Below are positions 1,277 to 7,076 of a DNA stretch of 64,000 nt, in pieces. The stretch's first letter is position 1. Each line of letters begins with the position of its first letter. The notes beneath the pieces are model-generated. The model was given only the letters and a program-made list of their open reading frames with translations. It was not told the DNA's origin and did no database searches. Source of the stretch: Paludibaculum sp. (GTDB lineage: Bacteria > Acidobacteriota > Terriglobia > Bryobacterales > Bryobacteraceae); contig JARKQJ010000218.1 in the NCBI GenBank assembly GCA_029973955.1, forward strand, positions 62,001 to 126,000, given 5' to 3'. Made by a program: the position numbers and the translations under genes.

Positions 1277-3622
1277 GTGAAGTTCTCCTACAACTGGATT
1301 CGCGAACTCGTGCCGGGCCTCTCGGCGGACCCGAAGGAGCTGATGAAGCTCATCACGATGAAGACTGCCGAGTGTGAAGGCGTGGAAGAGTATGCGCCCT
1401 GGCTGAGCGCGGTGCGCGCGGCCGAAGTGCTGGAAGTGGAGCCGATCGAGGGCAGCCACAACGTGAAGGCGGTGGTGGACGCGGGAGCGGAGTACGGCAA
1501 GCGTACCGTAGTGTGCGGCGCGCCGAACTGCCGGGCGGGGTTGTTTACGGCCTATGTGCCGCCGGGGATCACGGTGGCCGGCGCGAAGCACGTGCGGGCG
1601 GCAACGATCGCCGGCGTGGAGAGCGAGGGCATGCTGGCCTCGGGCAGCGAGTTGGGACTCAACCGCGACCACGAAGGGATTCTGGAGCTGACCGGGGTGA
1701 AGGCGGGCGATGCCGTGCCGGGTTGTCCCCCGGATTTCGTAATTGAAGTAGACAACAAGAGCCTGACGCACCGGCCGGACCTGTGGGGCCATCACGGGAT
1801 GGCGAGGGAAGTGGCTGCGATCACGACGGGCAGGCTGGCCGAGCCGGCGGATCTTTCCCTGATTCCGCAGGGCGAGCCGGCATGGCAGGTGGAGATCCGC
1901 GATTTCGAGCTTTGCCCGCGCTATTCGGCGCTGGTGTTCGAAAACGTGCAGGTGGGGCCTTCGCCGCTGTGGCTGCAGATGCGGCTGGAGGCGGTGGGGC
2001 TGAATCCGATCTCCAACGTCGTCGACGTAACGAACTACATCATGGCGGAACTGGCCGAGCCGATGCACGCCTTTGATGCGGACTGGCTGCAGGGCAACAA
2101 GATCATCGTGCGGCGCGCCGAGGAAGGCGAGAAGTTCGATGCGCTGAACGGCGAGAGCTACCGGTTGACGGCTGCGAATCTGGTGATTGCGGACGCGCGC
2201 GGCGCTGTGGCGCTGGCCGGCGTAATCGGCGGCGCGGGCTCGGCGATCAACGATTCGACCACGCGCATCGTGCTGGAGAGCGCGAATTTCCAGGCGGCGA
2301 ATATCCGCAAGACCTCATCGGGATTGAAGATCCGCACGGATGCCTCGATGCGGTTTGAGAAGGCGCAGGATCCGGTGAACACGGAGCGGGCGCTGGCGCG
2401 GGCCGTGCAACTGCTGAAAGAAGTATGCCCGGGCATCCGGCTGGTGGGCGGTCTGGTGGATAGCTGGAAGAAAGCTCCAGCGCCGGCGCCGATCGAGCTG
2501 CCGATGGCATGGCTGGTGAAGAAGTTGGGGCGGCCGATTGAGGCGGCCGAGGTGCGGCAGATCCTGGAGTCGCTCGAGTTTCAGGTAGCGGAGCCGAAGC
2601 CCGGAGTGTTCAGCGTGACAGTGCCTTCGTGGCGGGCGACGAAGGACGTGACCATCAAGGACGACCTGCTGGAAGAGGTGGGCCGCATGGTGGGCTATGC
2701 CACCGTGCCGCCGCAGGCGCCGATGCAGCCGGTGAAGCAGCCGTGGATCAACCAGGAGCGGCTGTTCCATCACACGGTGCGAGAGCTGACCGCGGCGCAG
2801 GGCTTCACGGAGAGCTACAACTATTCCTTCATCAGCGAGGAGATGGCGCATCGCTTCGGGCTGGACCCGGAGACGCACATTCGCGTGGCGAACCCGATTT
2901 CGAGCGAGCAGGGGCTGATGCGGAAGAGCCTGCTGCCGGGGATCCACAAGAACATTCTGGACAACGCGCGTTTTTCGCCGGCGTTCCGGCTGTTTGAAAT
3001 CGGCAACGAGATCCACCCGCGCGCGGGTGGCGAGTTGCCGGACGAAGTCCCGCATCTGATGGCGGCGGTGTACGCGAAGGACGACGGCAAGGCCGGGCTG
3101 TTCGAAGTGAAGCGGCTGGCCGAGTGCCTGATGCCGGGCTGCACCGTGACTCCGTGCGAGGCGCGGCCGTATGAGCATCCGGCGAGATCGGTGGAAGTGG
3201 CGTGGCGCGGGGAGACGCTGGGGCGACTCTTCGAACTGCATCCGGCGCTGGTGGAGATGGGCAGGGCGGCGGTGCTCGATGTGAACCTGGGCGTACTTTT
3301 CCGCCTGGGTGCCCGGCCCAAGAAATACACGCCGCTGAAGCGGTACCCGTCGAGCGAGTTCGACCTGTCGGTAGTGACCGGGCTGAAGGAGCTTTGCGCA
3401 ACGGTGGAGAGCCGAATCCGCAAGGCCGCCGGCGCGGGCTGCGACCGGGTGGCGTTCCTCTACTCGTATCAGGGAAAGCCGCTGCCGGAAGACCGGCAGA
3501 GCATGAGTTTCCGAGTGACGGTTTCGGCTGCGGACCACACTCTGTCGAACGACGAAGTGACGGCGGTGCGGAATGCCATCATCACGGAGTTGAAGGCAGC
3601 GGGCTACGAACTGAGAGGCTGA
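1277..3622 (+). CDS. pheT: phenylalanine--tRNA ligase beta subunit
   Basis: 781 aa; N-terminal tRNA-binding-like region (VEPIEGSHNVKAVVDAGAEYGKRTVVCGAPNC), B3/B4 and B5 regions, C-terminal FDX-ACB-like domain; adjacent to pheS. Confidence 0.95.
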   Translation: MKFSYNWIRELVPGLSADPKELMKLITMKTAECEGVEEYAPWLSAVRAAEVLEVEPIEGSHNVKAVVDAGAEYGKRTVVCGAPNCRAGLFTAYVPPGITVAGAKHVRAATIAGVESEGMLASGSELGLNRDHEGILELTGVKAGDAVPGCPPDFVIEVDNKSLTHRPDLWGHHGMAREVAAITTGRLAEPADLSLIPQGEPAWQVEIRDFELCPRYSALVFENVQVGPSPLWLQMRLEAVGLNPISNVVDVTNYIMAELAEPMHAFDADWLQGNKIIVRRAEEGEKFDALNGESYRLTAANLVIADARGAVALAGVIGGAGSAINDSTTRIVLESANFQAANIRKTSSGLKIRTDASMRFEKAQDPVNTERALARAVQLLKEVCPGIRLVGGLVDSWKKAPAPAPIELPMAWLVKKLGRPIEAAEVRQILESLEFQVAEPKPGVFSVTVPSWRATKDVTIKDDLLEEVGRMVGYATVPPQAPMQPVKQPWINQERLFHHTVRELTAAQGFTESYNYSFISEEMAHRFGLDPETHIRVANPISSEQGLMRKSLLPGIHKNILDNARFSPAFRLFEIGNEIHPRAGGELPDEVPHLMAAVYAKDDGKAGLFEVKRLAECLMPGCTVTPCEARPYEHPARSVEVAWRGETLGRLFELHPALVEMGRAAVLDVNLGVLFRLGARPKKYTPLKRYPSSEFDLSVVTGLKELCATVESRIRKAAGAGCDRVAFLYSYQGKPLPEDRQSMSFRVTVSAADHTLSNDEVTAVRNAIITELKAAGYELRG

Positions 3623-3655: not shown

Positions 3656-4627
3656 ATGTTCAAGCCCCTACTCCTGACAACTCTTGCCGCGCTGAGCGCG
3701 GTGGCCGCGGAATGGCCGAGCGCGACGATTTCGAATGGCGCGGTTACGGCCAAGCTCTATTTGCCGGATGCGCGGACTGGCTACTACCAGGGCACACGTT
3801 TTGACTGGTCCGGGCAGATCGCGAGCCTGAAGACGAAGAACCACGAGTACTTCGGGCAGTGGTTTGAGCGGTATGATCCCAAGCTGCACGACGCGATTCT
3901 CGGGCCGGTGGAGGAGTTCCGCACGGCGAACGCGGCTTTGGGCTACGACCAGGCACAGGTGGGCGGCGGTTTTGTGCGGATCGGCATCGGCGTATTGAAG
4001 AAGCCGGAGGAGAAGGGCTTCGTCTGGTCGAAGACCTATGAATTCATCGATCACGGCAAGTGGGAGACGAAGCAGGGCAAGGACTGGATTGAATTCCGGC
4101 ACACGCTGAACGGGCCGGCGGGCTATGCATATGTGTATACGAAGAAGATCCGGCTGGTGAAGGGCACGGCGCGGATGGTCATCGAGCACACGCTGAAGAA
4201 CACGGGCACGTCCAAGATCGAGTCGTTCCAGTACAACCACAACTTTTTCGTGATGGACGCGCAGCCGACGGGGCCGGAGGCAAGCGTCAAGTTCCCGTTT
4301 ACGTTGAGCCCGGTACGGAAGTTCCAGGGCGGGTTCGCGCAGGAGAAGGGCAACGAGATCGTGTTCCTGAAAGAGCTGCAGATGGGCGAGAGCACGATTG
4401 CCGAGTTCAAGCCGGAGGGACCGCAGGCCGGCGTTTACGACGTGCGGATGGAGCATCGCAAGGCCGGGGCCGGCGTGCGGATCCAGGGCAACATCCCGAT
4501 CGACCACGTCGTGTTCTGGGCGATCCGGAAGACGTTCTGTCCCGAGCCATATGTGAAGATCGACGTGGAGCCGGGCAAGCAGTTGAAGTGGAACTACGAC
4601 TACGAGTTCTACGATTTGGCGAAGTAG
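3656..4627 (+). CDS. secreted protein of unknown function (possible galactose-mutarotase-like fold)
   Basis: Signal-peptide-like N-terminus MFKPLLLTTLAALSAVAAEWP; beta-rich body with EHTLKNTGTSKIESFQYNHNFF; fold is inferred. Confidence 0.6.
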   Translation: MFKPLLLTTLAALSAVAAEWPSATISNGAVTAKLYLPDARTGYYQGTRFDWSGQIASLKTKNHEYFGQWFERYDPKLHDAILGPVEEFRTANAALGYDQAQVGGGFVRIGIGVLKKPEEKGFVWSKTYEFIDHGKWETKQGKDWIEFRHTLNGPAGYAYVYTKKIRLVKGTARMVIEHTLKNTGTSKIESFQYNHNFFVMDAQPTGPEASVKFPFTLSPVRKFQGGFAQEKGNEIVFLKELQMGESTIAEFKPEGPQAGVYDVRMEHRKAGAGVRIQGNIPIDHVVFWAIRKTFCPEPYVKIDVEPGKQLKWNYDYEFYDLAK

Positions 4628-4631
4628 CTGA

Positions 4632-5252
4632 CTAGAAGCGGAAGCCGACGAAGATGTCGTGGGAGTCCAGGGAGCCGTACGATCGCTTATAGATGTGCGT
4701 GTAGCGGTAGCCGGGCTCCAGGGTGAAGCGCCCGGTGAGCTTGATGCTCAGGCCGCCGCCCGCCGCGATGCCGTTGCGGGTGTAGTTGGAGTGGAGAGTG
4801 TAGGTGGTCGGGTTGGTCGCGTATTGGTTGGTGACTTCCGCGTGCTCATTTGCTATGCGGAGTACGTAGCCGCCTTCCAGGAAGGGGGTGAGACGGGGCT
4901 GCCCGGGGAGTATGTATCCCTTGAGAAGGAAGGGGAAGTCCCAATTGTTCACCGTTGCGCGGCTGAGCCAAAACTGGTCCAGATTGACTGTGGGGGGTGC
5001 GGGCATTGGCAGGTACGCCTTCGAGGTGTCGTAGCCTTTGCGGCGGTAGAGCCCTTCCGCGTCGAAGTACAACATGGACCAAAGGTGCATCTGGGCAAAG
5101 CCGCCGAAAACGTAAGGCTTGGATTCGTCCATGGTGCTGTAGTAGGTGTCGTTCGCGGTGAAGCCGATTTTAGGTCCGTAGTGGAAGCGCTGTGCGAAGG
5201 CGAGGGGGCAGAAGAGCAGGATCGCGAGGAGAGCGGGTGGACACCGGCGCAT
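4632..5252 (-). CDS. outer-membrane beta-barrel family protein
   Basis: Signal peptide MRRCPPALLAILLFCPLAFAQ; alternating aromatic beta-strands and C-terminal DSHDIFVGFRF ending in Phe. Confidence 0.7.
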   Translation of the reverse strand: MRRCPPALLAILLFCPLAFAQRFHYGPKIGFTANDTYYSTMDESKPYVFGGFAQMHLWSMLYFDAEGLYRRKGYDTSKAYLPMPAPPTVNLDQFWLSRATVNNWDFPFLLKGYILPGQPRLTPFLEGGYVLRIANEHAEVTNQYATNPTTYTLHSNYTRNGIAAGGGLSIKLTGRFTLEPGYRYTHIYKRSYGSLDSHDIFVGFRF

Positions 5253-5335
5253 GGACTTGAAGACGCGCGTGTCTGAAAAAGTGTTTCGGATTTTTCCCTC
5301 AACGGTTTGGCGAGCGGTAACGTATGTAGATCAGA

Positions 5336-5878
5336 GTGGCCGTGGCAGAGATCCAATTCGCAACAACGGCGTTGAGGGCAGACCGGTTGGAAGAGTTCCA
5401 CCGGCTGATGCAGGCTCACGAGAAGCTGGTTCTCCGCACGGCATTGAGGATCGCTGGGAACCTGGAGGATGCACAGGATGTGTCGCAGGAGGTGTTTCTG
5501 CGGCTGTACCGGCATCTGGACCGGATTGAGGCGGAGTTGGGTGTGCCGTCATGGCTGTACCGCACGACGGTGAATGCGTGTTTTGACCTGTTGCGGCGGC
5601 GGAAACCGGTGGAGCCGATTGTATGGGAGCCGCCGGTGGCGGCATCCCAGTATGCCGAGCAGGAAAAGGAACAGCGGCGGCGGATCATCGCCGAGGGACT
5701 GAAGACGCTTTCCGAGCGTGAGCGCGCGGCGGTGGTGCTGCGGGAGATTGAGGGTCTGGCCACGTCGGAGGTGGCGCGGATTCTGGGCGTGGCGGAGGAG
5801 ACGGTGCGAAGCCAGATTTCGACGGGCAGGGCGAAGCTGCGCGCGTTTGCGGAGCGTTATGAAAGGAGGCGGCCATGA
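5336..5878 (+). CDS. RNA polymerase ECF-type sigma factor
   Basis: Region 2 (LRIAGNLEDAQDVSQEVFLRLYRHLDRI..WLYRTTVNACFDLLRRRK) and region 4 (LSERERAAVVLREIEGLATSEVARILGVAEETVRSQISTGRAKLR). Confidence 0.92.
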   Translation: MAVAEIQFATTALRADRLEEFHRLMQAHEKLVLRTALRIAGNLEDAQDVSQEVFLRLYRHLDRIEAELGVPSWLYRTTVNACFDLLRRRKPVEPIVWEPPVAASQYAEQEKEQRRRIIAEGLKTLSERERAAVVLREIEGLATSEVARILGVAEETVRSQISTGRAKLRAFAERYERRRP

Positions 5879-6276
5879 GTTGGACAGACGACGATCTGGA
5901 CCTGGCATTGAGTGAGTTGAAGGACGAGCCGCTGCCTTTGGGGGCGACGGAGGCGGTGCGGGCGCGTGTGCTTGCAGAGATGGAGAGGCCGCGGCGGCGG
6001 TGGTGGATGTGGGCTTGGGCGCCGGCTTTGGCGGCAGGCTTGATGGTGTGGGCGGCGATTCCGCAGGAGCCGAAGCTGGCGCCGCCGCCGGTGCTGGCGC
6101 GGGCGCCGGAGGCACCTTCGTTGGAGCGGCCGGTGGCGGTCGTGAAGAAGCCGGCGGCGCGGCGCGTTGCGCCTGTTGAGACGAAGGAACAGCAGACGCA
6201 GTTTGTGAAGCTCGTTACCGATGACCCGGATGTGGTCATCCTGTGGGCCATGAATTCGGAAGGAGAGGACCGATGA
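5875..6276 (+). CDS. putative anti-sigma-like single-pass membrane protein
   Basis: Overlaps the sigma-factor stop by 4 nt; one TM segment (WWMWAWAPALAAGLMVWAAIP); Pro/Ala-rich linker; no Cys or His. Confidence 0.55.
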   Translation: MSWTDDDLDLALSELKDEPLPLGATEAVRARVLAEMERPRRRWWMWAWAPALAAGLMVWAAIPQEPKLAPPPVLARAPEAPSLERPVAVVKKPAARRVAPVETKEQQTQFVKLVTDDPDVVILWAMNSEGEDR

Positions 6277-7076
6277 GGAAATTGATCGTTTTGACTTTGG
6301 CAATGGCGATGGCCTGTTTCGGGCAGGAGCCGCCCAAGTGGCAGCAGAAGGTGTTTGATGTGAAGTATGTCGACGTGCAGGCACTGGCGAACTTGATCCG
6401 CGGTGTATGCCAAAGCCGGGAGACGCGCGTGCAGGAGAACCCGTCTCTGCGAGCGATCAGCGTGGGTACGCCGGACTCACGGGATTTGACGGCGGCGGAG
6501 GAGTTGATCAAGCGGTACGACGTGTCGGCCGGGGCGGTGCCGTCGGGGCGGCGCAACATCGAACTGGTTGCCTACATGCTGATGGCGGCGCCCAAAGGCA
6601 CGGCCGGAGACGCATTGCCGGCCGATCTGGACGCTGTGGCCAAGCAGCTCAAGGCGGTATTTGGCTACGGCGATCTGCGGCTGTTGGACAGTGCGATGGT
6701 GCGGATCCGCGAAGGTGTGCCCATGGAAAGCAGCGGCAATGCGGGCATTGCCGACCCGGGGACCGGAAACACTCCCGCCATGTATCAAATGAGAATCGCC
6801 AAGAGCTTCGTGATGCCGTCGGAACGAGGCAATGTCATCAAACTCGATGGGTTTCGATTCGGCGTGCGGGTGCCGTACTCGACCGCGAACTTCAAGAGCG
6901 CCCCAGATGGCCAGGGGGGTCGCGCAGTGCAGTCGACACAAGTTCACTATTCCGACGTCGGGTTCAACACCGAACTCGACATTCGAGAGGGGCAGAAAGT
7001 GGTGGTGGGCAAGGCAAAAGTGGACAGCTCCGGCAGCGCGTTCATCCTGGTGCTGACCGCTAAGGCCGTGGATTGA
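6273..7076 (+). CDS. secreted protein with secretin N-domain-like region
   Basis: Signal MRKLIVLTLAMAMACFGQ; FDVKYVDVQALANLIRG..LRAISVGTPDSRDLTAAEELIKRYDV resembles secretin N1-type repeats; 4-nt overlap with the upstream gene. Confidence 0.6.
   Translation: MRKLIVLTLAMAMACFGQEPPKWQQKVFDVKYVDVQALANLIRGVCQSRETRVQENPSLRAISVGTPDSRDLTAAEELIKRYDVSAGAVPSGRRNIELVAYMLMAAPKGTAGDALPADLDAVAKQLKAVFGYGDLRLLDSAMVRIREGVPMESSGNAGIADPGTGNTPAMYQMRIAKSFVMPSERGNVIKLDGFRFGVRVPYSTANFKSAPDGQGGRAVQSTQVHYSDVGFNTELDIREGQKVVVGKAKVDSSGSAFILVLTAKAVD

Follow-up and report, generated by a model that had tools for sequence, protein, structure and literature searches.

A conserved operon of Acidobacteriota that combines an ECF sigma factor, an anti-sigma factor truncated in many lineages and a reduced secretin: a candidate envelope-signalling module

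Among the known regulatory systems, the free periplasmic protein VreA appears, by analogy, to be the one that the third protein of the operon described here is most like. The VreA/VreI/VreR (PUMA3) system of Pseudomonas aeruginosa (PMC2729926) shares with this operon an ECF sigma factor and a membrane anti-sigma factor, and in both the place of the outer-membrane receptor is taken by a free protein of the periplasm that has a domain of the secretin/TonB family. However, VreA joins an STN domain to a TolA/TonB-like domain, whereas the third protein here joins a Secretin_N-type domain to a secretin-like beta domain, and the present operon differs further in having its own sigma-type promoter and an anti-sigma factor that ends in a short hairpin motif. 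In the FecI/FecR/FecA system (PMC11637429), the tail of an anti-sigma factor with a single transmembrane (TM) segment is the presumed target of a periplasmic KH/STN-like domain, in likeness to the trio, but the trio includes neither a TonB-dependent barrel nor a FecR-type periplasmic domain, and its anti-sigma factor is apparently of zf-HC2 class I origin. In RpoE/RseA/RseB, too, a single autoregulated operon encodes a sigma factor, a one-TM anti-sigma factor and a third protein that is exported, but the third protein of the trio is secretin-derived and shows no RseB (MucB) domain among its Pfam or NCBIfam matches. Sigma factors fused to a TM segment and a periplasmic part are known from IutY (ECF243) and SCO4117 (ECF52) (PMC8999054) and resemble a fusion found in two of our loci, except that the latter consists of TM, linker and hairpin tail with no recognizable anti-sigma domain. 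Finally, the secretins GspD, PilQ, InvG and phage pIV contain, by profile and fold, the same N domain and secretin-like beta domain as the third protein, hereinafter the mini-secretin, whereas the latter has 267 aa, no match to PF00263, no VPxLxxIPxLG gate and no secretion genes nearby. The kinds of components are already known; what appears to be new is how they are combined, the reduction of the secretin and the fact that the anti-sigma domain was lost convergently with the tail kept, none of which we found in the literature searched, the coverage of which was incomplete.

The operon lies within a stretch of 64,000 nucleotides of Paludibaculum sp. DNA (hereinafter, the window; contig C79, genome total 6.5 Mb). 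The ECF sigma factor, a protein of 180 aa, consists of sigma2 and sigma4 only (region 2, PF04542, 7.7e-17; region 4, PF08281, 8.8e-13; TIGR02937 scored over the cut-off), and its gene is followed by those for a one-TM middle protein and for the mini-secretin (Table 1). A first-pass annotation of this DNA had suggested, from 4-nt overlaps at both junctions, that the three genes form a single translational unit, and this is borne out, the sigma/middle and middle/third junctions both being ATGA. The dN/dS values of 0.10 to 0.30 for all three genes indicate purifying selection.

Table 1. Positions in the window of the trio genes, their parts and the adjacent features
Feature	Position	Strand	Basis or remark
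Divergent outer-membrane barrel gene	4632-5252	-	PF13505, 1.1e-10
ECF-type promoter (candidate), TCAACG-N16-CGTAT	5299..5325	+	AAC at -35, CGT at -10
ECF sigma gene	5336-5878	+	GTG start
Middle gene	5875-6276	+	ATG start, ATGA overlap with sigma gene
Putative cytoplasmic remnant, aa 1-42	5875..6000	+	Aligned to helix-4 region of zinc relatives, motif AVRARVL
Single TM segment, aa 43-62	6001..6060	+	Sequence inspection by eye
Periplasmic C-terminal motif FVKLVTDDPDVVILW, aa 110-124	6202..6246	+	Predicted beta-hairpin
Third gene, mini-secretin	6273-7076	+	ATG start
Secretin N-type (KH-like) domain, aa 24-84	6342..6524	+	PF03958
Secretin-like beta domain, aa 95-266	6555..7070	+	AF2 model and hhalign

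In 104 loci, the genes for the ECF sigma factor, the one-TM protein and the exported secretin-like protein follow one another in this order on the same strand; so they do in 15 of 17 further loci from other families of Acidobacteriota, the sigma gene not being found within the stretch examined in the other two. The annotation had named poor conservation of the trio in relatives as a refuting outcome; instead, the trio retains its order across Acidobacteriota and is no local accident. Searches with the single sequences in 61 relatives matched the middle protein in 24 and the third protein in 31, the weakest of the latter being matches to larger secretins. A profile (A1) built from 27 third-protein sequences gave matches in 75 of 399 genomes at the class level, 117 of 237 at the family level and 84 of 396, from dozens of families, at the phylum level; wide regions around these matches were taken for reading gene order. 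In the second set, four loci had no upstream sigma gene, all of them at contig ends, and the true exceptions, in which the third gene stands without the sigma and middle genes, are L082, L091 and the first copy in L141. The trio is dispensable, because it is absent from 15 close genomes of the same taxonomic order. One scan of genome contigs for relatives outside Acidobacteriota returned loci of the same genus only, a plasmid search for relatives of the trio found none, and a search of PHROGs found nothing.

The middle protein (133 aa, C-terminus ...QTQFVKLVTDDPDVVILWAMNSEGEDR) has one hydrophobic stretch and contains 0 Cys and 0 His, as had been noted from the sequence at the outset. The sequence PRRRW precedes the TM segment, with the N-terminus inside; in alignment A2, W44 is nearly invariant, as are R29 and V32 of the cytoplasmic remnant, and aa 24-38 are aligned and conserved at the putative helix-4 position before the TM. 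There is no hidden N-terminal domain, since the frame upstream of the ATG is open for 4 codons only. The zinc-containing relatives share the layout MNC...HxxxCxxC, (A)VRARVL region, one TM, Pro-rich stretch and tail, and everything N-terminal of the VRARVL region is missing from the window's protein, in which the HxxxCxxC zinc motif and helices 1-3 of class I (ASDI) are absent. The zinc motif is kept in 57 and lost in 44 of 104 middle-protein relatives, and zf-HC2 is matched in 8 of 25, for example, in L080. Judging from these alignments, the middle protein is a truncated class I (ASDI-type) anti-sigma factor of zf-HC2 descent that has lost the zinc helices 1-3. The earlier statement that this is not a classical zinc anti-sigma factor holds with respect to Cys and His but not with respect to ancestry, since by alignment the protein shares its descent with zinc anti-sigma factors. 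In class I, sigma4 is the binding partner of helices 1-3 and sigma2 that of helix 4 (PMC7406223); the part retained in the window would correspond to the sigma2-binding end, and inhibition of the sigma factor may be weak or absent here because the sigma4-binding helices 1-3 are gone.

A tree built on the sigma factor and the third protein of 102 loci requires 12 changes of zinc state, at least 7 of them forced by strong branches. Repeated loss of the zinc domain appears to be the simplest reading given that the zinc form is the usual one in distant families too. A fused architecture is found in L146 and L148, from two species of genus g52 (74% identical), where sigma regions 2 and 4, TM, linker and tail make up one open frame of ~250 aa that includes no anti-sigma domain and runs by an ATGA overlap into the mini-secretin gene. 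In a third species of this genus (L233, G239:C9, ~1465-1900, minus strand), most of the module is gone by in-frame deletion: the frame of sigma region 4 (...LHYVDGLAA) continues into the final residues of the mini-secretin (LDGNETMFAVLVPKIVE), and the promoter-like TCAACA-N16-CGTAT is still present. In L152 (G414:C7), sigma region 4 is cut short and the TM and the tail motif follow in a different frame; this reflects a frameshift in a sigma-TM fusion or else an error of assembly, and the locus was left out of the fusion count.

The C-terminus of the middle protein had been singled out in the first-pass annotation as a defined motif, and the logo of 88 anchored loci, VK(L/I)xTDDP(D/N)VVI(Y/L)W at the extreme C-terminus, agrees. 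A tail profile made of the last 40 residues, searched in 61 genomes, matched once in each of 22, always directly upstream of the mini-secretin gene, and found no match away from that gene in any of the 61; the divergent tails in G031, G044 and G053 score under the motif threshold. The motif is retained whether the form is zinc, truncated or fused. Because the anti-sigma part was lost repeatedly and the tail was kept, the most important parts of the system would seem to be the tail and the secretin-like protein that partners it. In a relative from L141, a single frame with a stop codon in it spans the tail and the third protein, and in the AF2 model of the read-through product both parts are confident, with the tail predicted to form a hairpin (pLDDT ~78) and the docking not readable from the output.

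Taken alone, the exported third protein of the window matches Pfam Secretin_N at 0.0015, which is below the curated cut-off; of 27 relatives, 24 match PF03958, the best at 4.5e-8, and the third-protein profile matches GspD (5wln) at 3.8e-13. The AF2 model of the mini-secretin (pLDDT 87.7) has 37 matches in the PDB at E<=0.001, all of them secretins (best 1.7e-8), and the model of a relative has 36 such matches, again all secretins (best 3e-10), with a TMt of 0.56 for phage pIV. In the hhalign comparison with secretins of the same group and genus (93.9%), collinearity extends from the N domain as far as EGQKVVVGK, the counterpart of secretin EGexxxIGG; the gate motif VPxLxxIPxLG and the segment after GG are absent from the mini-secretin, and the modelled beta domain has only one long hairpin left (aa 186-208 and 219-238). 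The complete secretin domain PF00263 is matched neither by the window protein nor by the 27 relatives, and no plug or barrel domain is seen in Pfam matches or in the AF2 model. By profile and model, the third protein is best described as a reduced whole secretin, comprising the N domain and a secretin-like beta domain, with the gate motif gone. A plain N domain was considered and rejected, the fold and the profile showing the beta domain; of the original characterization of this protein as an exported, free secretin N domain, the export and the relationship to secretins stand, and the free N domain does not, since the beta domain is kept. Four other loci (L092, L093, L094 and L100, in G003, G006, G002 and G036) encode exported proteins of ~180 aa without an N domain that carry only a secretin lip-like stretch (RLGQRVPYATG...STQFQYAEVGVNIDC); in L100, this lip-only protein adjoins a sigma gene and an anti-sigma-like gene. 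A separate observation is an 818-aa secretin (L097:3199-5652, own genome, C242) with TPR, Secretin_N, Secretin and a C-terminal cohesin domain, which has close relatives in the genus.

The putative promoter of the trio fits the AAC/CGT consensus of ECF promoters (PMC8103513). It is the sole match in the window with <=1 mismatch, there is no second good copy in the window's genome, and, its end being 10 nt before the GTG of the sigma gene, a near-leaderless transcript would follow. At spacing 16, a score of at least 9 out of 11 is reached in 71 of 101 trio loci compared to 2.6 in control segments, a score of at least 10 in 54 compared to 0.2, and a perfect score in 30 compared to 0, with no excess in the trio loci at spacings 12-15 or 17-21; about 30% of the trio loci have no promoter at a score >=9. 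The perfect sequence TCAACGNTTN13CGTAT is present only as the operon copy in six of seven genomes of the genus (in two fragmented assemblies, the perfect copy is ~300 bp or less from a contig start, as expected if the sigma gene is split), and the seventh has a second perfect copy inside a GH92 gene. With 1 mismatch, the seven genomes have 30 matches, 7 of them perfect operon-type copies, compared to 16 in the reversed control. This pattern suggests that the module mainly transcribes itself, weak further targets being possible. A wider regulon was considered and rejected, the extra perfect copies looking like chance. One trio clade (L079, L080, L135, L142, L147 and relatives) is without TCAACG-N16-CGTAT, and the sigma factor of this clade may recognize some other sequence.

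Taking together the gene order, the homologies, the linkage of the motif, the promoter, the loss of the zinc domain and the sigma-TM-tail fusion, we consider it reasonably probable that the trio is a self-activating envelope-signalling module in which the tail of the anti-sigma factor is read or guarded by the mini-secretin in the periplasm. The middle protein would hold the ECF sigma factor at the inner membrane, the ancestral tether presumably being a zinc class I anti-sigma factor that in this genus would be represented by the helix-4 region, the TM and the periplasmic tail only. Once in the periplasm, the exported mini-secretin would bind the tail hairpin, with beta-sheet addition as the likeliest mode, on the model of the STN domains of TonB-dependent transducers and their anti-sigma factors; in cell-surface signalling, domains of the STN type do bind the tails of anti-sigma factors (PMC11637429). 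The mini-secretin might either guard the hairpin from proteolysis or report the state of something in the envelope, and upon a change of state, the tether would be cut by regulated intramembrane proteolysis, setting free the sigma factor, which would then transcribe its own operon from TCAACG-N16-CGTAT and so yield more mini-secretin. An M50 site-2 protease is present in the window genome, likewise in 14 of 14 control genomes.

Could the mini-secretin be the output of this circuit rather than its sensor? Under such a scenario, it would be induced by stress and have a structural or assembly role in the envelope, perhaps forming a ring or small pore, and its level or assembly would be monitored by the tail of the middle protein as product feedback. 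The restriction of perfect promoter copies to the operon in six of the seven genomes makes the mini-secretin look like the main product, and the fold match, that to pIV included, covers the secretin domain too; however, a pore of the known secretin type is doubtful with the gate motif and the post-GG segment missing and one long hairpin left, and weaker promoters might still serve a wider regulon, so that we regard this scenario as rather unlikely. The notion that the operon is merely conserved and that the middle and third proteins are not physical partners, the mini-secretin serving, for instance, a separate pilus or secretion machine, appears quite improbable to us: solitary mini-secretin genes do exist, but the tail motif is strictly linked to the mini-secretin and is retained where the whole anti-sigma domain is lost, and secretion or pilus genes are not recurrent beside the trio in the compared loci.

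A different question is whether, in the lineages with truncated or fused forms, the middle protein inhibits the sigma factor at all or only tethers it, in which case its activity would depend solely on proteolytic release, in the manner of IutY-like or ECF52-type fusions. The repeated loss of helices 1-3, the fusion in L146 and L148 without any anti-sigma domain, and the precedents of IutY and SCO4117 all speak for tethering alone, whereas the conservation of the helix-4 region in the unfused truncated forms is what one would expect if sigma2 were still bound; we take tethering alone to be a serious possibility without favouring it.

If the trio is indeed a signalling module of the kind proposed above, a poorly cultured phylum would gain a defined, widely conserved envelope-signalling system, and parts of a secretin would have been reused for signalling, not for export. 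A broader and decidedly tentative generalization, which we do not expect to hold in full, is that a secretin-derived non-channel protein is the dedicated periplasmic partner of a sigma switch throughout the phylum, with recognition of the short anti-sigma hairpin as its core and the anti-sigma domain expendable; many lineages would then control the sigma factor by tethering and the interaction between tail and mini-secretin only, up to the sigma-TM-tail fusion. The natural series from zinc anti-sigma factor through truncated form to direct sigma fusion would lend itself to asking what an anti-sigma factor can and cannot do without.

Beyond the trio, every gene family is limited to 11 or fewer of the compared loci, and no TonB receptor is recurrent beside the trio in these loci; dehydrogenase and rhamnulokinase genes lie downstream in a few related genomes only. 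The small barrel gene divergent from the trio, to which the first-pass annotation had drawn attention, is confirmed by its Pfam match (Table 1). It was considered as a member or partner of the module and rejected, the only other occurrence read being the same-genus locus L067. The window also encodes, at 3656-4627, an exported protein of 323 aa with no Pfam or NCBIfam match, which is found beside the trio elsewhere only in L067, with 69% identity.
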